Shown here one piece after another: positions 18,168-37,534 of a stretch of 37,534 bases of DNA (within the stretch, counting starts at the first letter, position 1; each line of letters opens with the position of its first letter). The stretch lies in NCBI GenBank assembly GCA_020859845.1, contig JAJBVL010000046.1, forward strand, positions 1 through 37,534, in the 5' to 3' direction. The position numbers and the translations under genes were made by a program. The notes beneath the pieces are model-generated. The model was given only the letters and a program-made list of their open reading frames with translations, was not told the DNA's origin and ran no database searches. This stretch comes from Bacteroidales bacterium. Its GTDB lineage: Bacteria; Bacteroidota; Bacteroidia; Bacteroidales; Muribaculaceae.

Positions 18168-18228
18168 CAGCTGCGCGAGGGAGAGCTCCGCGAGGAGAAG
18201 CTTCGCGAGGGGAAGCTTCGCGAGGGGA
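18168..18228 (+). repeat. 15-bp degenerate tandem repeat after fmt
   Basis: Four consecutive units of the type (A/G)GAAGCTTCGCGAGG follow the fmt stop directly, the last two nearly identical. A single copy of the same unit is the coding end of the ROK kinase gene (EELREG). In both places the unit is followed by the 43-bp repeat, so the two form a composite element. Confidence 0.8.
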
Positions 18229-18411
18229 TTAAAAGCTGAAAAGCTAAAAAGGCTAAGAAGCAAGGCTGCTGGCCGCCTGGCCGGCAATGGATGCTTCTTA
18301 GCCTTTTTAGCTTTTAGCCTTTTACGGCCAGCGATGCTTCTTAGCCTTTTTAGCTTTTCAGCTTTTAAGGCCAACGATGCCTCTTAGCCTTTTTAGCTTT
18401 TCAGCTTTTAA
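18229..18411. repeat. 43-bp repeat array with a perfect 33-bp inverted repeat
   Basis: One copy at 18229-18261 faces three tandem copies in the opposite orientation starting at 18293, 18336 and 18379 (43-bp period). The 33 bases at 18229-18261 are the exact reverse complement of 18336-18368, and 18379-18411 differs by one base. Between them GGCCGCCTGGCCGGC adds a GC-rich tip. The array separates the convergent genes fmt and the giant surface protein and could act as a bidirectional terminator. RNA from either strand has T-rich arms. It starts 61 bp after the fmt stop and ends 11 bp from the stop of the opposite gene. Confidence 0.9.
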
Positions 18412-18422
18412 GGCCCGGTTTG

Positions 18423-21400
18423 CTAATTGATTCTGAACTTGAAGGTCTTGACAATGTAGTAGCCGGCGGGGAGGTCGGCGACACGAGTCTCCGACTCGTG
18501 GAGGGCGCGCACCTGACGCGCATAACGGCCCTGGATGTCGTAGACGGTGAGGGTGATGTCGTAGTCATACTGATTGTCAATCACCAGCTCGTTGTCCTCA
18601 ACCCGCATGGTGAGAAGCAACTCGCCTGCCTCATCATCGCCATCCTCATCCTCAACAAGGCTATCAACGCCTCGCGAAGCGATATAGAGCGGCTTAGTAG
18701 AGGCTACCGGCACCGCCAGATACGTGCGGAAGGGATACACCACATAGTCGGTCTTGCGCACCAGCGAACCAGCATTGTCCTCCTCGTCAATCACCACCTC
18801 ATTACTCTTGCTCGTGGCATGAGTAAACGTGCCCACATGGCTATATGCGTCATGAGAAAACGCCTTGGGCTGATTGTGGTCCGTGACGAGTATCTTCTGC
18901 CCCGGCGCCGAGTAGGTAATCACCTGACGCCCAGGACTCGACGTGTTGAACCTCTCTGCATAGAACTCGCCCGAGCAGTCAAACTCATAATACCTCTTGC
19001 CTGGGAAACTAATAATATAAGGATAGGTAGCCGTGATGTAAGGATAATCATCATAATCCACGCCCTCGGCTGTGTAGGCCGCAGCCTGCTTATCATGAGT
19101 GGCGCTGAAATTATAGTCGTCGCCGTAGAGCGTCGAGAAATAGAGGTTGGAGTAGTGGATATCCTCCGTGGACTCTTGAAGGTTGGCTATATGGTTGAAA
19201 GTGGTCCCTCCAAGGTCATCCTCCGAGCCAGGACGCACGAAGTAGGCCTTGTCGCCATCCACACCCACAAACTTACGCAACCAGTATTCATGGCTCTCAG
19301 CCTTGACATCCTTGCCGGCGTGAGTGCCATAGAAGTGGGTCATCTCGCCGTGGTCGTGGATAGTGCCCATCTCGGGATTCTCTATGGAGCCATAGACGCT
19401 CTTCACAGTGAACGGCAAGCAGAGACCTTCCCAAGCATCTCCACCCGTGGAGAACACCTCGGGAATACGGCTATACCACACCTTCTCGGTGACCGTGATG
19501 GGTATCGGGCAGTTGAAATCTTCCTTGTCCACCAACTGCAGATAATCGGTGGTAGAAGCTGCGGCCGTAGCGTCAATCACATGGCCATAGATGTCGGTAG
19601 CAGCCTTGTCGGTGTCGTATTTCCAGTCCTGCAACAGTCCGCCCGCGCCACTCATAGCCTCGGGGGCATAGATAAGCAGATTGCGAGTGACGGGGCTTTC
19701 TCCGAGGTCGACAGCAGCCTCTTCGATAGTAGCTGTAGTAAACGAGGTCAACCCAAGATTTAAATCTTCCTTATCGGGGAGGTCGAGCGCCGGAGCATAC
19801 CATATAGAGCGGTCAGTGCGCTCGTCGTAGCTCACGGAATAACCATCCTGATAGTCGCCCTTGTTATACTTACTTTCGCTATACGCCGCATCGCGCACGC
19901 CAACGAAGTCGATAGCCGTCAATGATGGCTCCACGGCAGCAGCGCCGAGGTTGAAATGGAAACCCTTATCCACCTCCGAGCCATAGAAACCCGAAGCACG
20001 ATACACTCGCTCGGTCTCAGAGATTGAGTGAGGCCACGGATCCTCCGTGCTGCCATAAGCCAAGTCTTGACCAAAGAAGATATAGTCAGTCGGGTAGACA
20101 GGGAGATAATATTGCTTGCCGTCTGCGTCAATCAGATTGTTGCCATTCTCATCAAGACCACGGAGCTCGTCGATGGGGTCGAGAGTGTTGTGCATCGTAG
20201 CATCAGCACCGGTGACACCCGCTGTGGGATAGGCGGTGGCGGTGATAGAGCTGCGCTTTTTGAGAAGGTCGCGATAGTTGGGCGTGGTGGCCGTGCGGAG
20301 GCTCCAGGGCGAGGAGTCGGCATCGTAGACGCGAGCGTAGCGATAGCTGCCATCGCGGTAATCATCGTTGATAGGAGCCACGAGGTTGCCATCTGGGGTC
20401 GATGTGGCCAGGTTGTAGCGCTTCTTGAGGTAGAAGTGGTTGAGATTGTAGGCCACCTTGCCATAGTCAAACTCATCCTTTGTGGCCACATACAGGCCAT
20501 CCACCTCGCCCTTGGTGGTGGAGGTGACAAACGAGTTGTAGACCACCCCATAGCCACGCTCCCCTATCAACTCGCCCTTTGAAATATCCGTGGAGTTGTA
20601 GAAGAAGCAGCTCTCAATAGTGCCCTGCTTAGAATGGTCGGTAGCGCCGTTGTAGCCAAACACCACGGCATTCTTTTCGGCGATGAAGCCAGTGTTGTAG
20701 AACGCCCCCTGGTTGTAGCCGAGGAACATGAGATTTTCACCCATATCTATCGAGTGGCCACCGCCATGGAATGTGCCGCGGAACACGAGATTCTCGACAG
20801 CCGAGGTGTTGCTCTTGGCTATCTCGGGCATCTTAAGGTCGTCCATCAAGTAGAACGTCAACCCTTCGCCATACTGAGGATTGATCTCAAGGCCATTCTC
20901 AGTCTTAGTGGTAGGAGCCGACTGAGCAGCCTCCAGCCACTCAAAGAAGTAGGCGAGGTCATCCTCATCCTCGATATAGATGCGCGAGCCAGCAGTAAGA
21001 GGAATGGTCTCCATCGTGGATAGACGATTAGTCTCGTTGATGGAGGGGAGCATACGGTGATAGTTGTGGACCGTGAGTTGCTGACGCTCTGGCGAATCCT
21101 CAGTTGGAGCCACCGTGTAGAGAGGTATCGGGCCACTATTGGTCACCACCTCGTAGATGAGATTCCAACCATCGCGATAGAGGTAAGCCGGGATATGCAC
21201 CTGACCATTGGAGCCGCCAAAGGTTTGGTCGGTGACATTCACCTTAGTTGCTCCAGTAGGATCTTGTATATACCAGTTGCGCCCCGTGACGGCCATATTA
21301 GCATCGTCGAGCTCGACATCCACACCAAAGTCGTTGGCGAAGATATACTCGCCGGGGAGAGCATCATTCTCTATCACAGGATTGCCAGTGATAACAGGGC

Positions 21401-24332
21401 CGAGGAGATATTGGATGGTGAGATTGATGGTGTAGGTAAACGGAGTCACCGTGCCGTCATCGCTGGTCTGCAGAGTGGTGAGCACTATACGCACCTTCTC
21501 GTCTTGCTCAAGGTGAGCCTTATAGTAGGTCGAGGTGGAGTTGTCGATGTTGTCGAAGAGCGAGATGCCCAGTAGCGGCTTGTTGATAAGATTTCCTTCT
21601 TTATCCTTCTCCTTATAATTGTTTATCTCACCGATGCTTTTTGCCAACGCATCAGCCGTAGTATAGACATAGGGGTCGGCGGTAGTGCCAGCGCCCGAGC
21701 GTGTGCGGTCGGCGCGCGGGAGCATCACGGCATAACCAGTGGCTGATTGAGTAGACGTTACATCATGGGCCGTTGATGGATCGCCATCCACTGTGATATA
21801 GATCTTGTAGTCCTTGACATAATTACCATCTGTGTCCTTATCGGTGATATTCTGGAGGTCTGAAGAATAAGTGGAAGTAGTCGCAATAGGCTCCCATGTG
21901 ACGGTGTCGAGCGTTATCTCCGAGCCATCCCCTACCCCATAGAGATAGATAAGATAGTCGTTGTTGTTGAGCGTAAACTTGCTCTTGTCGTTGAAGGTGT
22001 AGCCTGTGAGAGTGACGTTGTAATAATAGTTGGTGCCACTCACATACCAATAGTGGACATCCTCCAAGGCGTTGCAATCGCCATGGTCCTCGTCAACGGT
22101 GACAGTAGAGGCCCTTGAGCCTGGCATGGTGGATGTCTTATAGTCGGCTGGCGATGCTGGCCATCCATAGTAGGAATCCCATCCTGAGCCCATGGGGAAG
22201 CAGTCGTCGTAAACATAGTTGTAGTCGCTGGTGCCGTCGCTGTTCACCTTGTAGGCAGCGCCCGGGAATACGAAGTTGCCGGTGGTCTCGAGGAAGTGGT
22301 TGGGGTCGTCGTGCTGGTTGAGAGCGTAGATATAACCGCCACCCTCGTCCTTGGCCAGCGTCATTAGCTTAATCTCAAACACGCCGTTGACAGGGCCGTA
22401 ATAGATCGTAGCATCAGTTTCGTCAGGCATCACACCCTCGCCTTGAATCTTGAGGGTATAGCCGTTGTTGATACCAATCATGTTGGCCGCCGTGCCGATG
22501 TTGCGCTGGTCAAACTCCAGCGAGGTGAGCGTCCTGATAGTATTATTAGCGATAAGCTCGTCCGATGTTTCGCTATTGTAGTTGACATCGCCGCGCTTTA
22601 CTGGCAAGTTGCGGTTGGCATAGTAGTTGTTGATGCGATTGGTCTTATACTGCTTATACGAATACTTCTCGCCAAACTCCTCAGCAGGAGTCTTGTAATC
22701 GGCTCCTGCTGGCACATTGCTCTTTTGATTGACCTTGTTGTCATCGGCATCAATGGCATAGTCCTCAGTGTAGTTAAACTGGCCGTTGGCGCCACGGAAA
22801 CGGTCGGTGAAGAGCTGATTGGAGGTGATGCCAGCCACGTAGAGCACATCGTGGAAGAAAGCGATATAGTTGCGCTTGCGAGGCAGGTTGTGGATGGTGT
22901 TGTACATCCCCGAGTTCTCGCGCGTACCGGGGTCGAGTTCCTCCGTAGCTGGTATCGAGGAGTTCATCTGCAGTTCACCGATACGCGTCAAGGAGTAGTT
23001 GGTAGCGTCGAGGCTATTGGTGGCAAAGTCGTTGGCCCCCTCAAAGAAGAGGCAGCAGTCGGTGATGGAGAAGAGGTTGAGTCGCTGAGCCGAATTGAGG
23101 AGCTTGGGGTACTGGGGAGTGTAGTCGGCATAACCGTAATAAGCGAGGTCGCAACTGCGGAAGCCCTCAACGTAGACCTTACGACCACCGCCGTAGATAC
23201 CGCCATCGCTCTCTATCTCATAAAACTTCACGCCGTAATAGTCGCCACCCTCAGCCAGGTCGGAAGCCTGAAGCACGTAGGAGGGCTGATGGACATAGTT
23301 GCCCTTATCGCCTGAGCCTTCGGGGTCGTCATACTTGCCGTTGGCGTTCTTGACAAACCGATACTTGCCTATCACGTCCATACCAGCGTAGACCTTAGCC
23401 TCCACATAGTGGCCCGTGCCGATGGTGATATGGTCCTTGATAGTGGCACCGCTTGCGCCCTTGCCGCCTATATCATAGGCGGTGTTGGCGTTCTCGATAT
23501 TATCCCAAATGATGATGGAGGAGTTGCCACCAAAGCCTTCGTCGGCGGGGTCGTTCCAATAACCGTTGCGGAATTTCTGCACCGTAAACTGACCGGCCAG
23601 CGACTGAGAAGAGTTGGAGGTGATAAATCCACCACCATAAATATTGCCGTGGGCCAGATATTCCTCGCGAGTGTCGCGACGGCTCTTGCCATTGCCGATA
23701 TAGATGTCGATATCGTCCCAGGTGATGGTGTGATAATCGACGTTGGAGGAGTTGTAATGCTCTTTATAATTCTGGGGATAGTCATTGGCGACAAACGTAA
23801 AGCAATCCTCGAGAGTAAGCGTGGAGCCAAAACCTTCGATATAGGGCTGATCCGTGGCGTGGAGTGTGCGGTAGACGCTGGGCGACACATATTCACCCTC
23901 GCGCAACCATATCTCTTGGAGAAGGGCTGCCTTTGACACATTGTCGGTGCTCGACATGCCAGGGTTGAGAGCCGCCTTGCTTATCTTGTCGTTGCGATTG
24001 AGCTTGTAGCGACCGCTCTTCTGGCAGACGTAATACTGAGGCCAGCCCACGATAATCTGTGTGGAGCCATAGAGCGTCGAGGCCTCGCTACCACCATAGA
24101 GGTTGCTAAGCACCATGCCGTCGCGCACGGCAATCTCGGTGTTGCCCACCACGAGACCACGCTGCGAGCCACCAAACACGGTAGCCGCCGATGGGCTCTC
24201 GTCGCCGCTCAGCTTCACATAGTTGCCATCCGTGTCCTTGGTCCAATAGTCGGGGTGGAGCTGGCCGGGGAGCATGTGGAGCTTGATGTTGCCTCTCACC
24301 TCGGTGTCGGCACCGTATCCACCACCAATCAA
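18423..24332 (-). CDS. Giant surface protein, C-terminal part with T9SS-like sorting domain
   Basis: This frame is open from about 24383 down to 18423; its first listed residue is only a TTG, so it is not an independent start. It continues the YGGG turns (IGGGYGADTEV, TVFGGSQRGLV, NLYGGSEAST, NIYGGGFITS, GIYGGGRKVY) for about 400 residues, then beta-sandwich-like domains. Near residue 1,100 a second GLUG-like segment appears (DDLAYFFEWLEAA, FRGTFHGGGHSIDM). The last 75 residues (ELVIDNQYDYDITLTVYD, IQGRYARQVRALHE, VADLPAGYYIVKTF) match the Por-secretion-type C-terminal domain recognised by the type IX system of Bacteroidetes. An acidic linker (VEDEDGDDEAGE) precedes it. Sequence such as GGDAWEGLCLPFTV recurs in Bacteroidales surface proteins as I recall. 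Confidence 0.85.
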   Translation of the reverse strand: MIGGGYGADTEVRGNIKLHMLPGQLHPDYWTKDTDGNYVKLSGDESPSAATVFGGSQRGLVVGNTEIAVRDGMVLSNLYGGSEASTLYGSTQIIVGWPQYYVCQKSGRYKLNRNDKISKAALNPGMSSTDNVSKAALLQEIWLREGEYVSPSVYRTLHATDQPYIEGFGSTLTLEDCFTFVANDYPQNYKEHYNSSNVDYHTITWDDIDIYIGNGKSRRDTREEYLAHGNIYGGGFITSNSSQSLAGQFTVQKFRNGYWNDPADEGFGGNSSIIIWDNIENANTAYDIGGKGASGATIKDHITIGTGHYVEAKVYAGMDVIGKYRFVKNANGKYDDPEGSGDKGNYVHQPSYVLQASDLAEGGDYYGVKFYEIESDGGIYGGGRKVYVEGFRSCDLAYYGYADYTPQYPKLLNSAQRLNLFSITDCCLFFEGANDFATNSLDATNYSLTRIGELQMNSSIPATEELDPGTRENSGMYNTIHNLPRKRNYIAFFHDVLYVAGITSNQLFTDRFRGANGQFNYTEDYAIDADDNKVNQKSNVPAGADYKTPAEEFGEKYSYKQYKTNRINNYYANRNLPVKRGDVNYNSETSDELIANNTIRTLTSLEFDQRNIGTAANMIGINNGYTLKIQGEGVMPDETDATIYYGPVNGVFEIKLMTLAKDEGGGYIYALNQHDDPNHFLETTGNFVFPGAAYKVNSDGTSDYNYVYDDCFPMGSGWDSYYGWPASPADYKTSTMPGSRASTVTVDEDHGDCNALEDVHYWYVSGTNYYYNVTLTGYTFNDKSKFTLNNNDYLIYLYGVGDGSEITLDTVTWEPIATTSTYSSDLQNITDKDTDGNYVKDYKIYITVDGDPSTAHDVTSTQSATGYAVMLPRADRTRSGAGTTADPYVYTTADALAKSIGEINNYKEKDKEGNLINKPLLGISLFDNIDNSTSTYYKAHLEQDEKVRIVLTTLQTSDDGTVTPFTYTINLTIQYLLGPVITGNPVIENDALPGEYIFANDFGVDVELDDANMAVTGRNWYIQDPTGATKVNVTDQTFGGSNGQVHIPAYLYRDGWNLIYEVVTNSGPIPLYTVAPTEDSPERQQLTVHNYHRMLPSINETNRLSTMETIPLTAGSRIYIEDEDDLAYFFEWLEAAQSAPTTKTENGLEINPQYGEGLTFYLMDDLKMPEIAKSNTSAVENLVFRGTFHGGGHSIDMGENLMFLGYNQGAFYNTGFIAEKNAVVFGYNGATDHSKQGTIESCFFYNSTDISKGELIGERGYGVVYNSFVTSTTKGEVDGLYVATKDEFDYGKVAYNLNHFYLKKRYNLATSTPDGNLVAPINDDYRDGSYRYARVYDADSSPWSLRTATTPNYRDLLKKRSSITATAYPTAGVTGADATMHNTLDPIDELRGLDENGNNLIDADGKQYYLPVYPTDYIFFGQDLAYGSTEDPWPHSISETERVYRASGFYGSEVDKGFHFNLGAAAVEPSLTAIDFVGVRDAAYSESKYNKGDYQDGYSVSYDERTDRSIWYAPALDLPDKEDLNLGLTSFTTATIEEAAVDLGESPVTRNLLIYAPEAMSGAGGLLQDWKYDTDKAATDIYGHVIDATAAASTTDYLQLVDKEDFNCPIPITVTEKVWYSRIPEVFSTGGDAWEGLCLPFTVKSVYGSIENPEMGTIHDHGEMTHFYGTHAGKDVKAESHEYWLRKFVGVDGDKAYFVRPGSEDDLGGTTFNHIANLQESTEDIHYSNLYFSTLYGDDYNFSATHDKQAAAYTAEGVDYDDYPYITATYPYIISFPGKRYYEFDCSGEFYAERFNTSSPGRQVITYSAPGQKILVTDHNQPKAFSHDAYSHVGTFTHATSKSNEVVIDEEDNAGSLVRKTDYVVYPFRTYLAVPVASTKPLYIASRGVDSLVEDEDGDDEAGELLLTMRVEDNELVIDNQYDYDITLTVYDIQGRYARQVRALHESETRVADLPAGYYIVKTFKFRIN

Positions 24333-27300
24333 GGCGAAGGAGCGGCGCTGCAGTTTGTCGATGCCGGATGATACGCTCCTTGGTCATAAAGTCGGAGCTG
24401 CCTACGGTCGATGGGTCGATATTGAAACCATAGTAGCGATTGAGAGCGTTGACGTTGTCAATGAGGTTTTGTTCGGAGTATTCTTTTACGAGGTCGGAGT
24501 AGAGGTCGATGTGGATATTGCCCACCGTGCGACCTGAGTTATAGCACCCTCCAAACACTGAGCACTTACCCTCGGAGAAGTAGATAGTATGGCCATGAGT
24601 AGCCGTGGGGTCTTGCTCCACTATAAGGTCGGGCACAAGGGCTATCTGACGATAGTCGCCATTGACCGGATAGAGGATCTTCATAGGCTCAAACTGGCTG
24701 CGCACCTGCAAGAACACCTTATCCGAGTAGAGCAGATTGCCTTCGCTATCCTTTTCGGTGCTTAGCTCGGAGGTTAAGCCGCCGATATGAGTAGCGTCCT
24801 TATACGTTACGTTGGCGTTGTTGGAGCCACCGACAATGCGGTTGTAGATTACCAGATTGTAGGGGAAGGTGAGGCTGATAGTCTTGGATGTGAGCATCGA
24901 GCCGCTATTGCCACCCACGTAGAAGTCGCCGATGTAGGCCTCCTTGAGGTCGGTCTTGAGGTTGAAATCCTTAGGCAGACTATAAGTATCTACAGCCAAC
25001 ATATAGGCATCGAGCAGAGTGGCGTCGGTGGTGCCGATATTAAGGTCGTTGAGGCGCTCCGTCACCTCAATCATCGTGGGGTCGACGAGGCTCTCGCCAT
25101 TGGAGCCCATAAACACGCCGTTGAGCACCACATAGTCGCCTATCTCAAAGCGTATGTCGTTGGTCTCGCTGTCGACATCACTGGAGTTGATGGTCGAGGA
25201 GTTGCCGCCGCAATATACGTTGCCGTATACAAAGGCCTTGTTGGAGATGACGTCGCCGGTCGTGGGGTCGGTCTCATCGGCCTTACCTTCGATGGTGAGG
25301 TAAGCACGCTCCACGTTGGGACGGTAGGCGTTGATGGCCAGTAGCTTTTGCTCATCGGTGGGGGATTCGCCGCCATACTCCGTCTCGGAGCGGCGTGGGA
25401 GGATGAAGTAGCGACCACCATACTGGGTGTCGTAGACCTCCTCAATCTTATTGGTAGTGGGCGAGAGCGAGGGGTCGTACTGATAGCGATAGTTGCCATT
25501 GCCAGCGCAGTAGACGTCGCCGCTGATGGCACCTGTAATCTTCACTCGCGAGCCATACTCCACGTTGCCGCTCACGTCGTTGCCGCCATACACATGGTCA
25601 ATCACGCCCTCATGAATCTCGAGGGTGGCGCCATAGAAGTCGGAGCCCACCTGCGAGGAAGCCGACAGAGGATCCTCGCCTTCGGGAATGGCTGGCTCGA
25701 TGTCGCCCACACGGCCGCCACCAAACACGGCGTCGGCGTGAATGTCCTTGCTGTCGATCACCAGACTTAGGCCCTTGGCACCAATGGGATTCTCCTTCTC
25801 GACGTCGGCAGCATCGTAGAGATACTCAAAGTGGGTCATGCGCCCAAAGTTGCCGCCAGAGTAGACCGAGCCGAGATGGCCGCTGGTGAGCTTCCAAGTG
25901 GGCTGGATATCCATGTCGGCATTGTCGTTGCCGCCAAAGATACGGAATATGTGATATTTGAAGATGGTGTTGTTGGTGGTCGCGTCGTAAATCGACGTGG
26001 AGGTTACCTCCTCTATCTGCTCGTCGTCGCTGAGATGGAAGGTGTTCCAGATTCTTATCAGAGGATCGATGACATCAGGATCGCTGGGCGTCTCAAAGCC
26101 TGCGCGAGCATCCATGATATCGGTATCGGCTGCATAGTTGACGCTGAGGGTAGTCGACTCGTTGATGGTCGACTTGTCGCCACCGCCATACACATTGATA
26201 ATCGTGCCACCTTGGATATCAAGATAAGCATGGTCAACGTGAGGCACATCAAAGGCGCTATACAAGCCGCCCGGGTCGCCCGACAGCTCAACCTTTAATA
26301 TGGCATTGTTGATGCCAGTGGCCATGCGGAATGTGCCGTCGGTATAGGCCTTAGAGTTCTCATGCTCGCCATAGTTGCCATTGGAGCCGCCGTAAAGGTT
26401 ACCGATAAGCGGGAAACCATTGTAGCCATTCACCGCGCCGGGCGACGACTTGCCGGGGTTGACAGGATCCTTGGCAGGGGAAGCCGAGGGGTCGGTAGTG
26501 TCTTTTGTGGAGGCCGACTGACCAGAGGGTCCGTTAGGATCGCCTTGCACTTCATAGACCTTTACATAGGTGGAGTAGGCAGCCAGAGGGTCGTAGTTGT
26601 CGTGGCCTTCGGGTAGCTCCTGAGTGTAGATATTGCCCGAAATGTCGTTGCCGCCAAACACGGTGCCAGCTATCAGACGCGCACCGCACCAGTCATCCAC
26701 ATCCTCGAGCTTGAGCAAGAGCTCATAATCGAGGTGGTCAATCGACTCCGAGGCCTGGTCGCACAGCTCCACATTGGCGCGGCCGTAGAGGTCGCCAAGA
26801 CAGGCCCCACCATACACCTTGTCGACATTGCCCGAGAAGAGGCGCACGTCGGTGGCTTTAGCCGTGGCGTGGTCATAGTCCTGCCTCATATCCACTCCCA
26901 CAGACCCATAAAGACCGCCGCCATAGATGGCACCAAACACATAGGAATTAGTCTCATGGCCTGTGTAGTTGACGTGGGTGGTACCAGCCACAGTGCCACG
27001 GCAACCGCCTCCAAAGACGTTCATGCCCACGAAGTTGCGCAGCAGGTTGACGTAGGTGTCGCCATCCACACGGCTCTCGCTGCCATAACCACCGCCAAAC
27101 ACGCGGCCCAGATTATGCTCCAGCGAGGAGATCTGCTCAAAGGTCTCTTGGTCGCGTGCGCTGAGGTGCTCGCCGATGGTGTTGGACGACACATTAAGAA
27201 TCACGTCGCCATCCGTCACACCGCTCTCAAAGCATCCACCGTAGATGACACCTCCATAGTGGATGAAGTGGGTGTCGTCAAAGCTCTCGGCCGTCCAGTC

Positions 27301-30300: not shown

Positions 30301-33300
30301 ATAGCCCACCTTTTCTTCACTGTCGTTGGCAAGGGCGTTGTATTGGCCAGCGTTATCCCAGATCGCCATAGTAGGGAAGGTGCCTCCAGCGGCCTTGATA
30401 GCTTCAAAGCTACCATAGTGGAGAGTGTTGGAAGAGTCGAAGTAAGGGATGCAAGCATCAGGAGTGTAGCTTTTTTCATAAGAGTCGGCTTTATCATACC
30501 CCCAATCCTTGCCGATACCCGACACACCACCAGCACCAGCAGCGTAGAGCGACACTTGGCTACCTTCCGATCCGATGGTACCTCCATAGAGATTGATAAT
30601 GGAGCGGCCATAGAAGTAGCCTTCGAGCTTTGGGGCCTGAGTTGAACCAGAGGTATGCTTATGACGGCCAAGACTACCACCATAAAGCTCATCGATGGTG
30701 CCACCATAGACGTTAAGCTCTGTGGAGCCAAAGAAAGAATCGTCGGGGGCACCGGCGTTGAGGGTGCGACCCCACGTGATGTTGCCAGCGGCAAAACGCG
30801 AAATCGAGGCGCTTCGCATATCGAAAATAGCGTCTTCGTAGACAGAGCCATCGGTCTGACCACCCACCATCATACCGATGTTGTGGGTAATGCTGACTAC
30901 GTTGTTGCCATCAATCACTGAAGGCGCATAAGCCTCAAGGTCGTCGGCGGGGATATTAATCTCCATACGCACACGATTGGGAGCCAATGGGGAGCCGAAG
31001 ACATGCTTAGAGTCCCACGCAGTTTCCTGATCGTAACGTGAGCCACCAATGATACGCCCATAAGCCCCGGATAGGAGGCGGATGGTGGTGAGGCCCTCCA
31101 CTTCATTCCCCTCATACGATATGTAATGGTCGGGGTTGGAACGATCATATTGGTCGTTGATGGGGCCTACCACGAGGGTGAGATTGACTGCTTTGACATT
31201 CTCCGCCATGCCAGCATCGGTGTTGATGGTAGTGAAATGACACATCCTTACACCTTCCCCTACCGTAAAGTCGTGGTTATAACAGTAGATGCCATTATAG
31301 CCAGTGGAGGTGCCTTCCTTATAGATATCGAGATGCTCCAGCGTCAACGGTGCCTGAAGGCCTATGTTGGTTCGGCTAGTGCCGTTATCCACCCAACCCC
31401 ACGTGCCACCTGAGATGTAGGCCCCTGATGCGCCCGTTATGGTAGTGTGGTTGGTATAGATGTCGGAGCACTTATCGTTCTGGCCTTGGCGGTACAGAAA
31501 CTTATCTTTTTTGTAGTAGCCCATGATGACGATGCAATTGTTGTCGCGTCGCCCCACGGTGGGGTTGGAAGCGTCATAGCTGTCGAGAAGCTCGTAGGCA
31601 CGCTCTATTGAGTGGACTGGATTGGCAGGGTCGTGGCCATGGTTGTAGTCAATACCATTGGAGTAATACTCGTTGGTGAATGGATTGAGAGGATAGAAGG
31701 AATGCTTGTCGTCGTTGGCCAGTGTCAGTGCGCGGTCGTAGAGATACACCACATTTTTCGGACCCACGATATCAACGAGATGGGTGCCGCTCGAAGTCAA
31801 GAAGTCAAACTTGTAGTAGAGCGTAGGGTCAAACTCAAATGTGTCGGTACCGTCTCCGTGGAGGAGGGAGTCATGACGAAGGCGCGAGCTGGAATCGTAG
31901 TCGTGCTTCACCACCTTGGTCCACCCATTAATATTGGTAGGATCGGGGTTGGAGTACCACGTGTACCAACATTGGCTACTCGAGTCGTAGATGTGGGAAG
32001 TGTCCGTAGGGTCGCTTGACTTCGTGGCACCGCGCCACACCACATTGGCCTTATAATTACAAATATTACCATCGGCATCGCGCTCCTTTACAAACTCCAC
32101 GGCCAGCTGGTTGAAGTTGATGATGTCCTCGGTGGGGAAACGTCCCTCAGGATCAGAATCAATGCAATACAAGCGAGCACGTACCTCGAAGGCGGATGTG
32201 CGGTGGAGCAGATTGGGGTGGATCATAAAGCGGGTGCCCAATGAATCTACCCTGAACTCACCGCGGCGGTCGGTATTGAAGTTTACATCCGAGGAGGAAT
32301 GATTGGGGTCGCGATAATAGGCTCCTACCCAGTCGGTAAGCGTGATGACATCGTCAACCTTAGTGGCACCAGTCCAAGAGGATATATCCACATCGGCCGT
32401 GGATTGATAGATGCCACAATTGGAGAGGGTAGAGTCAAATGCTCCATTTACAATGTTATACCCTTCGCTGTCGCTATAGTTGGGACTCTTACGGTCGTCG
32501 CTCAAGCCATCGCCAGGGATAGTGTAGGCCCACTGTATGCGCCAACCTGATGCGTTGTCCTCGGTGTTCCAGTTGTTGCCAAACTGGTCGACGATATTGG
32601 CTTTGAAGACGATAGGACGCACCTTGGTGTCGGTCAGTGTGCCGTTGGCCGTCGACAGGTCGTATCCAGCCTTAGAAGAGAAATAATCAGAGGGCTTGAA
32701 TTCTTGATACTTTTTTGTCGACGGGTTATACTCATACATGGTGATGTCGACGTGGAGCTGCTGGATGGTCTGCTCTATGTTGTCGACAAGCTCGTTGTTG
32801 CTGTTGAGAATCTGGACTGTCTTCCCTGTGATATTGTCAACGATTACCAGCTTAACGATACCCATATAGCTGGGCACTACGTGAGCCACCTGAGAGGATG
32901 TCTCCTCCCAGGTATGTGAGGCCTCGAAGACTGAACCACGGAGGTCGATATACTGGTCGTTGCCTCCGGAGTCGGTGCCGTAAAGCACTGACCATTGACA
33001 TTCTATCTCGTCAAAGAGAGCATCTGCCACGTCGAAACGATTGCCATCAATTAGGGCATAGGGGGTAAATTCGTAATGGTCATAAACCCCATCCTTTATG
33101 GCAATGGTATACTCCATGCCGAGCGTTACGGAGGATATGTCGACGTAGTCGGTGGCAAGTTCTACGCCCTTAGCGTTGTAGATGGTTAATGTCACTCTCT
33201 TATAGTCGGAGTAATCTTGTGGAAGGGTGACGGTAATAGTGCCATCGCTGGCAGTGAAGAGATAGCCGTCAATGGTCTGCATTCCCTCATTGTAGGAATA

Positions 33301-34893
33301 GTCGATCTCTTTGGTGGTGCCATCGGCCATGTCAAACGTCCAATGCCCCACCAATGTAGACGCAGAGCGCATGTTGAGAATCTCAGCGCTGACAGTGTGG
33401 AGGGTCTTACGCTCCACCTTTACCACAGGGTCGATGGCAAACTCTACGCCCTGGCCAGTCTCATCCCAAGCAAACACTACTGTGGCATCGGGGGTGTTGG
33501 CATTGAGCATGTTGGTAATGGTGGCGCGACCATCACCGGAGTTGAGGTTGACATACGTGCCATGAGCCACACCTTGGAAAGCGCGCATTGCAGCAGCGGT
33601 ATTCCAAGTGGAGGTTGACCAGATGAGGGCGGCCTGGTTGCTTTCGTCGAGCGTGCGCACACCATAGCGCGAGCCATCGGCGGCTGTCAAGGGATAAGCA
33701 TCGGTGATGGTGGCATACGTGCCGGCTATAGAGTCGTAGACACTATAATTGCCATAATAGCGCTCAAAGTCGGGATAGAGGGTCTCTTTTGTGCCTTCGT
33801 GGACCACTTCCGAACCATTAAGAATAAAATAGCTTACACTCGTCGAACTCGTTATATTCTCATTCTTAATCACCTCGCCAGCATAGGCCTTTGTGACATC
33901 TAAGGCCGTGTTGTTACTATTGCTACGCACCAGTCCCACCACGGGAGCAATTGTGGCATGAGTGGCGTTTATCTGGCCAGTGTAAAGACAAGAGGCGGGA
34001 ATATCGGAGTATTTACCGCGACGGATACGGCCCACGATACCACCTACATTAAACTGATAATATTGGCTCGCTGAAATTTTGGAGCGCTTCTTACAATTGC
34101 TAAGGTCGATATCTACATCGCAATAAATGTTGCGCACATACACCATGCCTCGTCCGAGGATAGTGATAGAGCTCCACCCTCCAAAGCCCGATGTGATATC
34201 ACCAACCACACCCCCCACGAGGTAAGAACGATAATCGGGGTCGGTGCCACCATCGTTGATAGTAGAATTGGTGATGACAATGTTTTCGATCTTCACTTCC
34301 TGAGTGTTGGTGACGTCGGGGGTGATGGCACCTACGAGCACACCCACCTTGATGTCGGCCGAAGAGGTGGTCAGGGATGAAGTGTTGCGCGTGATTTGAG
34401 CCCCATCAATATGGATATTGCGGAGCGTACCCGTGACAAAACCAAAGAGACCAAAGGCATGGGCTTCGTTGTCAATCAATCCCCAGTTGACATATAGCCC
34501 CTCTATCTTGCAGCCACGGCCATCGTATGTGGCACCAAAGGGTTTGTTGGCCGTATGATTACAGGCTTCTATGGCGCTGTTGTTCGTTTCGTTGCCATAA
34601 CCTATGGGCTTCCAAGGATGAGAGCCGAGGTCGATGTCGTTTTTCTGCACATAATAGTAGCCGTAGGCCCAAAGCTCGGGATGCTGCTGCAGATAGTATA
34701 GGTCCTTGCCGTCCCATATCTGATAGGGGTCGGCCTCGGTGCCCGAGCCTTTTAGCTCAGTCGACATCGAAGAACCATCCCATGAGTTGACAGCCTTGAG
34801 GCTGAAAGGCATCAAGAGCAGCCAGGCCAGCAACAGGAGGAAAGAGCAAGCTTTAATATGGCGAGAGAACACGAGTGGATGAAGCGTATTCAT
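24106..34893 (-). CDS. Giant surface protein, N-terminal part (signal peptide, beta-helix and YGGG repeats)
   Basis: Of the 3,595 residues in this frame, about 3,510 are genuine; the last 85 or so (HRQTAAPLLRLDWW and on) are out-of-frame sequence after the shift. After the signal peptide (about 1-34) comes a GLUG-like/beta-helix region (about 45-480; GTEADPYQI, FGLFGFVTGTLRNIHIDG). Ig-like segments follow (about 480-1000), then a pectate-lyase-like helix (about 1080-1240; TITGASGAYISGGTWGW). From about 1250 on, dozens of turns of the type N(I/V)YGGGxxG-x-V-x-G-x-(T/V)-x-V-x-I recur, as in right-handed beta-helix adhesins. Near 2750-2800 a Pro/Ser/Asp-rich linker (TTDPSASPAKDPVNPGK) interrupts it. 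There is no enzyme signature. It follows two fimbrillin-like lipoprotein genes with a 42-bp gap. Adhesion or a surface coat is inferred from the fold. Confidence 0.88.
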   Translation of the reverse strand: MNTLHPLVFSRHIKACSFLLLLAWLLLMPFSLKAVNSWDGSSMSTELKGSGTEADPYQIWDGKDLYYLQQHPELWAYGYYYVQKNDIDLGSHPWKPIGYGNETNNSAIEACNHTANKPFGATYDGRGCKIEGLYVNWGLIDNEAHAFGLFGFVTGTLRNIHIDGAQITRNTSSLTTSSADIKVGVLVGAITPDVTNTQEVKIENIVITNSTINDGGTDPDYRSYLVGGVVGDITSGFGGWSSITILGRGMVYVRNIYCDVDIDLSNCKKRSKISASQYYQFNVGGIVGRIRRGKYSDIPASCLYTGQINATHATIAPVVGLVRSNSNNTALDVTKAYAGEVIKNENITSSTSVSYFILNGSEVVHEGTKETLYPDFERYYGNYSVYDSIAGTYATITDAYPLTAADGSRYGVRTLDESNQAALIWSTSTWNTAAAMRAFQGVAHGTYVNLNSGDGRATITNMLNANTPDATVVFAWDETGQGVEFAIDPVVKVERKTLHTVSAEILNMRSASTLVGHWTFDMADGTTKEIDYSYNEGMQTIDGYLFTASDGTITVTLPQDYSDYKRVTLTIYNAKGVELATDYVDISSVTLGMEYTIAIKDGVYDHYEFTPYALIDGNRFDVADALFDEIECQWSVLYGTDSGGNDQYIDLRGSVFEASHTWEETSSQVAHVVPSYMGIVKLVIVDNITGKTVQILNSNNELVDNIEQTIQQLHVDITMYEYNPSTKKYQEFKPSDYFSSKAGYDLSTANGTLTDTKVRPIVFKANIVDQFGNNWNTEDNASGWRIQWAYTIPGDGLSDDRKSPNYSDSEGYNIVNGAFDSTLSNCGIYQSTADVDISSWTGATKVDDVITLTDWVGAYYRDPNHSSSDVNFNTDRRGEFRVDSLGTRFMIHPNLLHRTSAFEVRARLYCIDSDPEGRFPTEDIINFNQLAVEFVKERDADGNICNYKANVVWRGATKSSDPTDTSHIYDSSSQCWYTWYSNPDPTNINGWTKVVKHDYDSSSRLRHDSLLHGDGTDTFEFDPTLYYKFDFLTSSGTHLVDIVGPKNVVYLYDRALTLANDDKHSFYPLNPFTNEYYSNGIDYNHGHDPANPVHSIERAYELLDSYDASNPTVGRRDNNCIVIMGYYKKDKFLYRQGQNDKCSDIYTNHTTITGASGAYISGGTWGWVDNGTSRTNIGLQAPLTLEHLDIYKEGTSTGYNGIYCYNHDFTVGEGVRMCHFTTINTDAGMAENVKAVNLTLVVGPINDQYDRSNPDHYISYEGNEVEGLTTIRLLSGAYGRIIGGSRYDQETAWDSKHVFGSPLAPNRVRMEINIPADDLEAYAPSVIDGNNVVSITHNIGMMVGGQTDGSVYEDAIFDMRSASISRFAAGNITWGRTLNAGAPDDSFFGSTELNVYGGTIDELYGGSLGRHKHTSGSTQAPKLEGYFYGRSIINLYGGTIGSEGSQVSLYAAGAGGVSGIGKDWGYDKADSYEKSYTPDACIPYFDSSNTLHYGSFEAIKAAGGTFPTMAIWDNAGQYNALANDSEEKVGYDLALDDTYVEINLYGGTILGDVYGGGLGYGNNLDYHRAPYRTLSDGTRMSLAGTFYGSSYIRLLPNNTGSDPVTVKGSIYGGGSGSLAYLNNSSTGLRTYTESGVTYTYDFNSIAQIFGDVKVDIQAGVIEGDVFAGGKGFEGFPEMANLYGNTSLTITGGEIYGHIYGGSSFSDILSYTDENDSKQGGNTEVTISDGYIGNCVFGGGHGSTTTAANVAGNATVNIYGGYFSNEPVDYIHAETYGQLKSFNIYGGGYINGAIGGNTKVNITASPLASEESLGLLGNETFKTLWDDITVRRFCVYGGGWGQKTLVKGNADVSINITHGLGTAEAREPQLDDIDALVPGQTFFDVAGGGYNGDVGYWDDAYEHYTGGNVSLMVKGAPFIRKVIGGAFYAQCDNTDTHVQSGTIKEVYGGALMGYVHTNGRLTIGRPAGEKTDAAEIAQSNAALFITENIYGGNDVKGIVGTAKWKDQTFADSDNEGLENTDQGPLYCADVSDAGNKGVTMTINGGTIGGNVYGAGNGHYRGYYVPGWARYQDGPDRQYRWVLLPGKNPGSKNDNDYGRVYRSKPMVGSVSLHIGGNSATDRVTIKGNVFGGGRSCTIGQWNTMLPFEDPRRLQKGGFMHVNFGSHVTVEGDVYMGSEGVEFAQSNVISPDCSFDVATYDGETLDTDELDDLGDIAYNHWYYHRTKKYYVPGFPVGSETDGNFGMLGEHMFRAYNKNIETNADIELTFYENPFETNADGSIKEATDANGNSYYVRRGWQPAELAFASYDSKDVYFTNFYGGGSCGTMSNNHLMSWDYTDNKAIDETVTGTEGHKIEEYGAVYRYTLPEGVTIYDKVVGGSKTAVTKFKQYNSTYTDFLDETTNPGYTFEGGMVTHSSFSYFLLIYCDQKGKWDHTVSPDIYLNQGYQTTYKDSYTFKDGSVTIYPKYYDSSNKAFPNAANLDHDRYAIATVKDASGNFVAYCGEREARVDQTVLKMSLRCQFDPQEGEHEADPDWTAESFDDTHFIHYGGVIYGGCFESGVTDGDVILNVSSNTIGEHLSARDQETFEQISSLEHNLGRVFGGGYGSESRVDGDTYVNLLRNFVGMNVFGGGCRGTVAGTTHVNYTGHETNSYVFGAIYGGGLYGSVGVDMRQDYDHATAKATDVRLFSGNVDKVYGGACLGDLYGRANVELCDQASESIDHLDYELLLKLEDVDDWCGARLIAGTVFGGNDISGNIYTQELPEGHDNYDPLAAYSTYVKVYEVQGDPNGPSGQSASTKDTTDPSASPAKDPVNPGKSSPGAVNGYNGFPLIGNLYGGSNGNYGEHENSKAYTDGTFRMATGINNAILKVELSGDPGGLYSAFDVPHVDHAYLDIQGGTIINVYGGGDKSTINESTTLSVNYAADTDIMDARAGFETPSDPDVIDPLIRIWNTFHLSDDEQIEEVTSTSIYDATTNNTIFKYHIFRIFGGNDNADMDIQPTWKLTSGHLGSVYSGGNFGRMTHFEYLYDAADVEKENPIGAKGLSLVIDSKDIHADAVFGGGRVGDIEPAIPEGEDPLSASSQVGSDFYGATLEIHEGVIDHVYGGNDVSGNVEYGSRVKITGAISGDVYCAGNGNYRYQYDPSLSPTTNKIEEVYDTQYGGRYFILPRRSETEYGGESPTDEQKLLAINAYRPNVERAYLTIEGKADETDPTTGDVISNKAFVYGNVYCGGNSSTINSSDVDSETNDIRFEIGDYVVLNGVFMGSNGESLVDPTMIEVTERLNDLNIGTTDATLLDAYMLAVDTYSLPKDFNLKTDLKEAYIGDFYVGGNSGSMLTSKTISLTFPYNLVIYNRIVGGSNNANVTYKDATHIGGLTSELSTEKDSEGNLLYSDKVFLQVRSQFEPMKILYPVNGDYRQIALVPDLIVEQDPTATHGHTIYFSEGKCSVFGGCYNSGRTVGNIHIDLYSDLVKEYSEQNLIDNVNALNRYYGFNIDPSTVGSSDFMTKERIIRHRQTAAPLLRLDWWWIRCRHRGERQHQAPHAPRPAPPRLLDQGHGWQLCEAERRREPIGGYRVWWLAAWSRGGQHRDCRARRHGA
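24360..24383 (-). other. Frameshift site in the giant surface gene
   Basis: The upstream frame is open through this interval and the downstream frame opens just after a TGA at 24384-24386, so the crossover must lie here. The simplest placement is at CGG-C-ATC (about 24362-24366), where one extra base, or two missing bases, changes frame. No convincing slippery heptamer of the -1 type is visible. Confidence 0.75.
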
Positions 34894-34935
34894 ACGAGTG
34901 GTGAATGAGGGTTCGTTTGTGGGGAATGAGGTGGG

Positions 34936-36087
34936 TTAAAGGCTGGGGTTGATCACGATGCCACCGTCGCTATTGGGGTCGTTGTCGGAGAGAACGTAGA
35001 GGTAGGAGGGCATCACGTTGACGTAGACATCATAGTAATTGCCAGCGAGCAACTCCTTGGAACTCAGGCTTCCCGTAGGAGCAAGGTTGAGAAAGAGTGT
35101 ACAGGTAGCTGTATCGTTCTGGCGCAGCAGCTGGTCGCTGGTGTCGTAGATGTCGTAGGTGACGGTGATGGTGATGGTCTCCAGTTTCTCGCCTGGATAC
35201 ACATAGCAGCTGGCAAAGGGCTGGAAGGTCGTTTTGTCCTTTGACAACAAGAGATAGTCGTCGGCGATTTCCTTGGTAAGCTGATGGGAGGTAGTGGTCT
35301 CAGGGTCATCCTCGGGGATCCAAGTGACGCTGGGGGTGTAGCTCGCCGTGGCGGCGTCGTAGAGATAATCCACTGTCACTGTATAGAGGGCGCCAGCAGG
35401 ATTCTCTATCTGCATATCCTTGAGGTGGATATAGCGCAGATTGGAGTAGGGAGCACCGAGTTTGAAGCAGAAACGCAGACGACTGCCAAAATGCTTCATC
35501 AGCAGCGTCTGCACCGTATTTTCTTTATCCTTGCTGGCATACGTGACTATCGTTGATGAATAGAGGTAGTCGATTTCCGTGCATTGAGCCACATGGCGAT
35601 AGGTCAGGGTCTGCATATCGCTGTAGCTTAGGTCATTAATGGTCACATCGTTCGATGCCGTGGGAGAATAGGGAGCATAGGCCACAAACTTATAATCGCG
35701 GTCAGCCTCCCATTCTTTAAGCGGGTTATAAGGCCATTCGTTGCCATCAGCCCACTGGAAAGTGCCAGTATACCAGCTCTGACTTTGGATAGCGGTGCCA
35801 TAAAGGTAAAACACTTGTTGGTTGTCGAAAACTGTTTCTTCAGTGGAGCCATCTGTGTTTGCGCTCCACACGCCAATGGATTCAGGCACCACAGATGTCA
35901 ACCCATCCCCCTCGGCACGCGAGCCAGAGATGGGGCTCCACGTGAGTTGGTCGGTGTTGTAGCCCGAGCCAATCATGACGTAGGGTGATGACGTTTCGCT
36001 TGGGCGGGGTTCATCTCCGTCGCTCGAAGAGCATCCTGTGAGGAGCATCACCCCTGCCATTATCATTATATATTTATTATATCCCAT
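34936..36087 (-). CDS. Fimbrillin-like lipoprotein B
   Basis: The N-terminus YIMIMAGVMLLTGCSSS carries a lipobox with lipidated C19, so it is exported by Sec and anchored, probably reaching the surface. After a Ser/Asp-rich spacer, the fimbrillin/Mfa-like pattern follows: SRAEGDG, IGVWSANTDGS, then a Trp/Tyr segment ending WEADRDYKFVAYAPYSP (about 129-145). A second beta domain (about 185-365) contains LLMKHFGSRLRFCFKLG and ends LLAGNYYDVYVNVMPSYLY. The length of 383 fits the Bacteroidales fimbrillin superfamily. Whether it is a polymerising shaft subunit or an accessory protein cannot be told. It lies 42 bp upstream of the giant gene and 66 bp downstream of its paralogue. Confidence 0.82.
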   Translation of the reverse strand: MGYNKYIMIMAGVMLLTGCSSSDGDEPRPSETSSPYVMIGSGYNTDQLTWSPISGSRAEGDGLTSVVPESIGVWSANTDGSTEETVFDNQQVFYLYGTAIQSQSWYTGTFQWADGNEWPYNPLKEWEADRDYKFVAYAPYSPTASNDVTINDLSYSDMQTLTYRHVAQCTEIDYLYSSTIVTYASKDKENTVQTLLMKHFGSRLRFCFKLGAPYSNLRYIHLKDMQIENPAGALYTVTVDYLYDAATASYTPSVTWIPEDDPETTTSHQLTKEIADDYLLLSKDKTTFQPFASCYVYPGEKLETITITVTYDIYDTSDQLLRQNDTATCTLFLNLAPTGSLSSKELLAGNYYDVYVNVMPSYLYVLSDNDPNSDGGIVINPSL

Positions 36088-36153
36088 TTCTATTATCCTA
36101 ATCTCTAAATTCTATCTTCTATCTTCTGTCTCTCTGTCTTCTATCTCTCTGTC
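36088..36153 (-). repeat. Polypurine (minus-strand) simple-sequence spacer
   Basis: The 66-bp gap between the two lipoprotein genes is almost all pyrimidine on the + strand, with repeats of TCTATCTTC and TCTCTGTC. On the coding strand this is AGATAGAAG / GACAGAGA. It supplies an unstructured purine-rich leader for the downstream gene and could vary in length by slippage. Confidence 0.7.
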
Positions 36154-37281
36154 TCACCAATTCGTGACATCATCGGGCTCCAAAGGACTTCCTTGGGTCC
36201 AGGTGAGCATCTCCACAGTCACATTAAATAGGATGTAGTCAGAGAAGAGGCTTCCACCATCTATTGAGAAGCAGTAGTCGTAGACCTTAGCCCACTCCCA
36301 GTCGTGGCTGAGGGGAAAGGTATTGGTCAACACAGTGCCATCTGAGAGAGTGATAGTGGCAGTGAGCTGGTTGCCATTGAGCTCTTGAGGTATCTCGGCA
36401 AATTCGGCCAACGTCACTGGGTCGCACCCCCCTTCCAAGAGTTGTGTGAGGTTGGTCAGCGAGAGGAGCGACGCCTGGGGAGTATAGTCGGTGAATGTAA
36501 AGGTGGACTGCTCAAAGTCGGCTTGCGTGTAGAGGGCTCCGGAGCCTTCGCTGTCGGCCAGCGACAGCACTACGTCGGTGACATACACCGCAGCCTTACC
36601 AATATTCTTGATGCTAATCCTGAGTTTTGACATGATGGGATGGAACACCAGCCCCACGTCGGCCGTGAGATCGCTGACATACGTCAGCAGCTGATCAGTG
36701 TCTTCCTTATAGAGATCGTAATCGCCAACCGAGGTGGCGCTGACGTTGCGCTTATGAAGAGCCACGGCCCAGAGTGGCACAGAGGATGTGTCTTCATTGC
36801 CTTTGAGGCCCTTGATGCTGACGCCAGCGGTGGTGTGGGAGATGTCGTAGGTTGCGGCAGCGTTGAGATTGTTGATGCGATAAGGGGCATAAGCTACGAA
36901 GAGGTAATCCGAGGCTGCGCGGTCCCAATAGCGGAGGTATTGGGGGTAGGCATCACTTTGGATGTCGTAGGTCCAAGCGTTTGAGCGCCAAGCGGCTTCG
37001 TAAGCCGAGCCATCGTCATGGCTCATTACATAAGAATTGGTGCCATCAACGGTCTTGATAGCCCACACGCCAAAGTCGGTGTGTACATCCTGAAGGTCGG
37101 CACGCGAAGAGCGGGCAGCCTCCTCGTCGACAGCAGACACGTTAAAGGCCATCGCCTCTTGAGGATCTACCACCGAGGGAACATCGGGACTGTCGCCTCC
37201 CGAAGAGCATCCAGCCAGCAGGGCCGCTACGGCTATAAGAAGGGATGAATATAGCAAGTAGAAATGACTTTTTCCAAGCAT
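36154..37281 (-). CDS. Fimbrillin-like lipoprotein A
   Basis: The signal peptide LLYSSLLIAVAALLAGCSS gives lipidated C25. The mature part shows the same plan as its neighbour: SRADLQDVHTDFGVWAIKT, then YLRYWDRAASDYLFVAYAPY (about 115-134), then TADVGLVFHPIMSKLRISIKN and a C-terminal beta domain ending WTQGSPLEPDDVTNW. VFHPIMSKLRISIKN is typical of fimbrillin-family proteins, where the basic strand follows the first domain. The 375-residue length matches. It is the first gene of the operon, 83 bp downstream of a good promoter. Sequence similarity to lipoprotein B is in layout more than identity, suggesting an old duplication. Confidence 0.82.
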   Translation of the reverse strand: MLGKSHFYLLYSSLLIAVAALLAGCSSGGDSPDVPSVVDPQEAMAFNVSAVDEEAARSSRADLQDVHTDFGVWAIKTVDGTNSYVMSHDDGSAYEAAWRSNAWTYDIQSDAYPQYLRYWDRAASDYLFVAYAPYRINNLNAAATYDISHTTAGVSIKGLKGNEDTSSVPLWAVALHKRNVSATSVGDYDLYKEDTDQLLTYVSDLTADVGLVFHPIMSKLRISIKNIGKAAVYVTDVVLSLADSEGSGALYTQADFEQSTFTFTDYTPQASLLSLTNLTQLLEGGCDPVTLAEFAEIPQELNGNQLTATITLSDGTVLTNTFPLSHDWEWAKVYDYCFSIDGGSLFSDYILFNVTVEMLTWTQGSPLEPDDVTNW

Positions 37282-37363: not shown

Positions 37364-37394
37364 CAAAGGTACAACTTTCTTTTTCAACCACCAA
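37364..37394 (-). promoter_or_regulatory. Promoter of the fimbrillin-giant protein operon
   Basis: On the minus strand, TACCTTTG (37371-37364) matches TAnnTTTG and a TTG (37394-37392) lies 20 bp upstream, the Bacteroidetes spacing. The predicted start near 37357 leaves a leader of about 76 bases before lipoprotein A. No invertible-promoter inverted repeats were found flanking it. The rest of 37282-37466 shows nothing else recognisable. Confidence 0.6.
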
Positions 37395-37466
37395 CAACTC
37401 TCTCACCATTAACATTTTTACATTAACCTATCACTTTCTGAATCCGAGAGAGATCCTTCCCAACCA

Positions 37467-37534
37467 CTTAAAGAGCCCCGCTGCGGCAGCTTTCGCAGTG
37501 CAGCGGCCCTCCGCTGCTCTTTAAGCGGCGGCCT
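37467..37534. repeat. GC-rich hairpin element at the right edge
   Basis: CTTAAAGAGC (37467-37476) is the exact reverse complement of GCTCTTTAAG (37516-37525). Inside lie GCTGCGGCAGC and the stem GCAGCG/CGCTGC (37500-37505, 37512-37517) around the loop GCCCTC. The internal part matches 17072-17109 with compensatory stem changes. It may terminate a gene beyond the window. GCGGCGGCC at the very end suggests that further units follow outside. Confidence 0.75.

Follow-up and report, generated by a model that had tools for sequence, protein, structure and literature searches.

We found that a cluster of three genes in a Muribaculaceae genome (Bacteroidales bacterium, assembly GCA_020859845.1) encodes two fimbrillin-like lipoproteins, Mfa_A and Mfa_B, followed by a giant repeat protein. 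The latter is probably an adhesin at or near the tip of a type V fimbria, exported by the type IX secretion system (T9SS) and docked by Mfa_B as its dedicated adaptor pilin. The cluster lies on the minus strand of the window analyzed here, the 37,534-nucleotide contig JAJBVL010000046.1 (C78) taken whole, in a 2.92-Mb genome of 112 contigs. An Mfa_B gene stands directly before the giant gene, on the same strand, at 15 of the 18 loci that could be judged, in three families (f1, f108, and f111); the giant C-termini are of T9SS type, and the window's genome carries a T9SS gene. Genomes, contigs, loci, and families are referred to below by numbers with the prefixes G, C, L, and f. The features of the window's cluster are as follows.

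36154..37281, minus strand: Mfa_A, fimbrillin-like lipoprotein (375 aa; lipobox LAGC; C-terminus NW; PF13149, 48.5 bits)
34936..36087, minus strand: Mfa_B, fimbrillin-like lipoprotein, putative adaptor for the giant protein (383 aa; lipobox LTGC; C-terminal YLYVLSD signature; PF13149, 42.8 bits)
24106..34893, minus strand: N-terminal frame of the giant gene (3,595 codons, of which roughly the final 75 lie beyond the frame break)
18423..24332, minus strand: C-terminal frame of the giant gene (1,969 codons)
24330..24360, minus strand: frame break within the giant gene (not in relatives G044 and G126)
23196..31053, minus strand: stretch of V-Y-G-G turn repeats that may form a beta-solenoid (33 turns over both frames)
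18447..18584, minus strand: T9SS type A C-terminal sorting domain (profile match to TIGR04183)
37364..37394, minus strand: Bacteroides-type promoter TTG-N20-TACCTTTG, 82 bp before the Mfa_A gene
37424..37534, no strand assigned: dispersed palindromic repeat at the contig end (genome-wide matches)

A sequence-only reading of the window had proposed that three same-strand genes, two of them for fimbrillin-type proteins with lipoboxes, follow a single promoter, and this layout holds up. The coordinates are confirmed, with gaps of 66 bp between Mfa_A and Mfa_B and 42 bp between Mfa_B and the giant gene, which spans 18423-34893 (16.5 kb). Both fimbrillins carry a lipobox and score well above the Pfam Mfa_like_1 (PF13149) cut-off of 27 bits. 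The promoter was called with the pattern TTG-N20-TAnnTTTG, which we take to be the Bacteroides consensus and which has two exact matches in the window against 0.16 expected. A transcription terminator between the genes had been named as a finding that would refute the proposal; no terminator-like site is listed in either intergenic gap of the trio.

Conservation of the gene order

Neighborhoods were read at 19 giant loci, one of which (G230:C26) ends inside the giant gene and was left out. Where Mfa_B directly precedes the giant gene, the gap between them runs from -38 to 222 bp (naive start positions; 13 loci plus G237 and G255:C40), and an Mfa_A-type gene comes before Mfa_B at 14 of the 15 loci, the copy in G230:C135 being apparently broken. 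The trio that the sequence-only reading suggested looking for in related genomes does recur outside the window's genome and in other families.

Mapping of Pfam Mfa_like_1 matches gave a match in the cluster upstream of the giant gene in all eight family genomes, that of G230 being only sub-threshold and about 6 kb upstream, and in four of six order-sample genomes, the two without a match being G605 and G732; the genes at the fimbrillin positions of G605 were recovered by the Mfa_A and Mfa_B profiles. A third Mfa_like_1 gene lies upstream in G044. Pfam also identified upstream DUF3575 in all three proteins tested (G378, G034, and G605) and upstream DUF5119 in all three tested, above the cut-off in G686 and below it in G378 and G034, while genes of these types in G044, G255:C40, G331, G503, G602, and G506 were recognized from their sequence ends, if at all. 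With the types so assigned, the trio comes after a further fimbrillin-type gene and DUF5119-/DUF3575-type genes, all in one direction, in G044, G034, G378, G255:C40, G686, and G605. A gene for a clostripain-family (C11) protease lies near the cluster head in G378 and G034 (L070:1040-2347 and L023:8087-8662), a candidate for a pilin-maturing protease; type V pilins are cleaved by a surface clostripain during assembly, according to excerpts of a review (PMC12632263).

Mfa_B as a putative partner of the giant protein

Judged by its sequence, Mfa_B looks like a dedicated partner of the giant protein. A profile built from eight Mfa_B sequences of family f1 was run on 685 open reading frames from 23 stretches, two of which overlap. 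It picked the gene before the giant gene at all five clustered loci of f108 and f111 (121, 129, 172, 214, and 231 bits) and also found both f1 loci outside the building set, G237 and G255:C40, the latter with an Mfa_B nearly identical to one of the building sequences. The best match other than an Mfa_B scored 23 bits. The profile had no match at the three giant loci that stand alone, and none in the stretches of other fimbrial clusters on the genome's own contigs C80, C81, C99, and C26. At least four further fimbrillin-type clusters occur in this genome, on those contigs (L024-L027).

Near the C-terminus, all 14 unsplit Mfa_B proteins carry YL[YF]xLS, and NW or DW forms the C-terminal end of each of the 14 Mfa_A proteins examined. 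The motif [ST]RA, a possible site of Arg-directed maturation by proteolysis, occurs in the first 110 residues of all 14 Mfa_A proteins and of 8 of the 14 Mfa_B proteins, counts made without a chance control. The Mfa_A profile matches a solved fimbrial protein, BF1861 (3sy6), with an E-value of 4e-4.

Reading frame, repeats, and fold of the giant protein

The giant gene does not read as the single frame of about 5,490 residues that had been described; it falls into a frame of 3,595 codons and a different one of 1,969 codons, the break being at about 24,330-24,360. Residues 20-3509 align with residues 9-3424 of the intact 5,339-aa protein of G044 at 52.5% identity, and the C-terminal frame aligns with G044 residues 3438-5338 at about 47% identity; the giant protein of G126 is likewise intact (5,348 aa). 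Because no stop interrupts the 1,969 codons of the second frame and 84 of its first 100 alignment columns are identical to G044, the break is either recent or an error of assembly, and such errors can occur in draft assemblies. We rejected a programmed frameshift, since both G044 and G126 encode the giant protein in one unbroken frame. The giant protein and Mfa_B of G237 (L068, G237:C53) are each split into two frames as well, at sites other than that of the window's break.

About forty YGGG/FGGG turns had been counted by eye, close to the 37 [YF]GG turns of a simple count (31 and 6 in the two frames) and to the 33 (28 and 5) found with a stricter pattern, for which shuffled sequences gave 1.35. 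The turns are confined to about residues 1,281-3,900, and structure prediction was poor (mean pLDDT of 43.5 and 30.7), so that a beta-helix over the whole protein was too strong a claim. The poor model gave weak matches to beta-helix-like folds, and a beta-helix fold of the giant protein is putative. Across loci the giants measure about 3,400-5,600 aa, and those of some species have up to about 2,950 additional residues as an N-terminal block. In G255:C30 the giant gene is followed, with a 4-bp overlap, by a gene for a second large protein (L073:12526-18000) with Fn3_assoc, CHB_HEX_C_1, and RicinB_lectin_2 matches; the start of L071 (G255:C40) also encodes a second large repeat protein after the giant protein.

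Signals for type IX secretion

The C-terminus of the window's giant protein matches the T9SS sorting-domain family TIGR04183 above its cut-off of 23 bits, with 25.2 bits in the genome scan and 23.9 bits as a 233-aa piece. TIGR04183 is the best family for all 10 giant C-termini tested, from among the 19 loci, and five of them pass the cut-off. The secretion component SprA (TIGR04189) is present in the window's genome with 2,694.8 bits (cut-off 200) and in none of 14 control genomes, and 16 sorting domains in the genome, the giant's included, score above the TIGR04183 cut-off. The N-termini of the giants, read by eye only, are hydrophobic and have no obvious lipobox.

Distribution and surroundings

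Giants were found in 14 Bacteroidales genomes besides the window's. A search with the 1,969-aa part matched 3 of 101 genomes and a profile of the conserved region matched 9 of 397 genomes of the family, in five genera, both counts including the window's own genome; no other genome of its genus was among the matches of either search. An order-wide sample gave matches in 7 of 393 genomes, again including the window's own, the other six being in three further families and the match in G732 being weak, and in a phylum sample of 395 genomes only the window's own matched. A scan with one peptide pattern returned three loci in two records, which are G044 and G034. In these samples, then, the giant gene is rare and its occurrence patchy, although several families have it. 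G255 has two separate giant clusters, on contigs C40 and C30 (L071 and L073), each with its own Mfa_A and Mfa_B.

The region upstream of the window's trio is hidden, because only 253 bp separate Mfa_A from the contig end, which is formed by the palindromic element. This element has 58 matches listed in the genome, most of them over about half of its 111 bases; its copies often form facing inverted pairs, giving it a REP-like look. Downstream of the giant gene are Formyl_trans and ROK genes on the opposite strand. Direct and inverted repeats at 18180-18420, 3' of the giant gene, are possibly a terminator region. The G+C content is even across the region (0.52-0.55).

Proposed model and alternative explanations

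Under the reading that we consider the most probable, and on balance probable, the trio would make up the distal part of an operon for a type V (Mfa/Fim) fimbria. Its two fimbrillins would be exported as lipoproteins and reach the surface as other type V pilins do; the giant protein would cross by Sec and then the T9SS and, as a long repeat rod, would be held at the surface by Mfa_B, becoming the tip or a tip-proximal adhesin as the smaller T9SS cargo Mfa5 does in Porphyromonas gingivalis. The sequence-only reading had likewise suggested that two export routes may build one surface structure with the giant protein as adhesin, tip, or coat. It is still the best reading and its gene arrangement is conserved over three families; the binding of Mfa_B to the giant protein, the tip position, and the adhesive role are parts that we infer. 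A more far-reaching proposal, to which we give slightly less than an even chance, is that these loci encode a distinct class of type V pilus in which one covalent giant solenoid of about 3,400-5,600 residues would make up the tip or even the entire distal shaft. The T9SS would export this solenoid, a dedicated Mfa_B (YLYxLS) that is not shared with the cell's other pili would dock it, and the fiber would be extended by the N-terminal block in some species or by a second large lectin-like repeat protein in one genome.

Several observations weigh against the fimbrial tip model. The fimbria, the binding, and the tip location are all read from genes. Related VYGGG repeat proteins occur without fimbrillin neighbors at G506:C24, G686:C43, and G732:C2 (L102, L103, and L104), so the repeat module also occurs elsewhere. 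The window shows no shaft fimbrillin, DUF3575, or DUF5119 gene, its contig ending where it does, and in G237 the next long open reading frame before the trio is on the opposite strand, both of which suggest that the trio may act alone. On the side of export, TIGR04183 scores only 20.1 bits within the whole 1,969-aa frame and the Pfam sorting-domain model PF18962 only 14.2 bits (cut-off 27), so that the T9SS-like C-terminal domain of the sequence-only reading stands by the genome scan and the 233-aa piece but not by these two measures. Five of the 10 giant C-termini tested fall under the TIGR04183 cut-off (13.9-21.6 bits), TIGR04183 also matches in two of the 14 control genomes, in one of them above the cut-off, and the long-form giants end short of the last positions of the profile. 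Their shortened C-termini may fit short sorting domains of the kind described, in excerpts of one paper, for Prevotella intermedia (43-55 residues; PMC11969387).

Other points concern the pilins. Mfa_A is less distinctive than Mfa_B: its profile matches other pilins (128.7 bits on the genome's own contig C99) and misses the gene at the Mfa_A position in G503, which was assigned by Pfam, and in G506, for which only the position and the C-terminal NW supported the assignment. Pfam has no match for the Mfa_B of G378 or G605 or for a 622-aa gene at a fimbrillin position in G378; the Mfa_B of G378 and both pilins of G605, all without a Pfam match, were assigned by profile and alignment. Since the Mfa_B profile has no PDB match up to an E-value of 1, the pilin nature of Mfa_B rests on Pfam, for some members only. 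Counting in favor of the model, the distances between giants and those between Mfa_B proteins correlate (r of 0.87 over 13 of the 15 loci, without G255:C40 and G237; none of 5,000 permutations as high), though species relatedness alone could yield such a correlation.

The lack of a visible shaft fimbrillin beside the trio in the window and in G237, together with the trio's own promoter in the window, could also mean that the giant protein is an independent T9SS rod on the cell surface, which the Mfa proteins only secure or cap. The trio would then be a two-part surface fiber with no polymerized fimbria, and a rod of such size could be tens of nanometers long, as estimated from the rise per coil. 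We consider this unlikely: further fimbrillin-type and DUF5119-/DUF3575-type genes precede the trio at the six loci listed above, and contig ends can account for the missing shaft genes in the window and in G126. Operons often mix functions, and the stand-alone homologues at 3 of the 18 judged loci would suit a giant protein that is a separate adhesin and shares a fimbrial operon for timing only. The sequence-only reading had allowed that its proposal would fail if the giant gene were never next to fimbrillin genes in relatives; the two are directly adjacent at 15 of 18 loci in three families, and the exceptions are the lowest-scoring homologues, with 306 (G506:C24), 302 (G686:C43), and 71 bits (G732:C2) against 378-523 bits for five clustered loci with the order-search profile. 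Because of this adjacency, and because the Mfa_B subtype was not found in the stretches of the same genome's other fimbrial clusters, we favor a physical partner over mere co-regulation, which strikes us as improbable. Least probable of all, in our judgment, is an account centered on the frame break, either as an assembly error or as the mark of a giant gene defective in the window's genome; if it were defective, the trio would be without function here even if functional elsewhere. The break itself and the split giant protein and Mfa_B of G237, where the giant protein is interrupted at another place, speak for such an account; against it, the frame after the break has stayed open and close to G044, both over its whole length and in its first 100 columns.

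Relation to known systems

The sequence-only reading knew of no described system of this composition, an expectation that is not borne out: Mfa5 of P. gingivalis is a precedent. In excerpts of two papers (PMC7835359, PMC8313007), Mfa5 is the sole fimbrial protein of the mfa1 cluster with a T9SS signal; its gene follows mfa1-mfa4, its export depends on the T9SS, and it has been seen at the fimbrial tip. The protein has 1,228 aa in the strain studied, and most genotypes carry von Willebrand factor (vWF) and Ig-like domains; the vWF domain is present in genotypes A-C and absent from D and E, and some strains have two tandem mfa5 genes (PMC8313007). As far as these excerpts go, Mfa5 and the giant protein share a place at the downstream end of a fimbrillin cluster, after accessory tip fimbrillins, a T9SS C-terminal domain, and a size far beyond that of the pilins, and both systems combine lipoprotein pilins with one large T9SS tip protein, a role read for the giant protein from genes alone. 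The tandem mfa5 genes resemble the second large protein after the giant protein in G255. Mfa5 differs in that the giants have about 3,400-5,600 aa, VYGGG-type repeats, and no vWF domain. No vWF family matched the window's giant protein in Pfam at E-values up to 1, and PDB sequence searches with either giant frame gave no match to an Mfa5 chain at E-values up to 5. Because it is without a vWF domain and a sequence match, we do not class the giant protein as an Mfa5, and by analogy we judge that it would work like one. Compared with Mfa5, the novelty lies in the giant protein's size, its repeat architecture, and its dedicated partner Mfa_B.

The type V pili of gut Bacteroidales, with their anchor, stalk, and tip pilins, share with these loci the Mfa_like_1 lipoproteins, the Mfa_A match to BF1861 (3sy6), and, in relatives, the upstream DUF3575/DUF5119-type genes, and the clostripain-family gene that G378 and G034 have close to the cluster agrees with the clostripain cleavage of pilins in the excerpts of the review (PMC12632263). 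They differ in that the candidate tip here is a separate giant T9SS cargo. The beta-helix adhesins of Gram-negative bacteria (two-partner systems and autotransporter passengers such as HxuA, Ag43, and FHA) differ from the giant protein, which would use the T9SS, has another repeat, and has a conserved pilin partner; Pfam and PDB sequence searches found no sequence relation to adhesins of this type. Among the matches listed from the open-license literature, neither a giant T9SS pilus tip nor an Mfa_B-like adaptor appeared in titles or the starts of abstracts.

The way in which a T9SS cargo becomes attached to a lipoprotein-built pilus is an open point in the biology of type V fimbriae, and Mfa5 was the sole case of such a cargo that turned up in the parts of the literature searched. 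The loci described here also flag genes of 10-17 kb that draft annotation may give as fragments or as hypothetical proteins. An adaptor-type gene that recurs beside a giant T9SS-type cargo in three families offers a genetic handle on the meeting of the two export routes.

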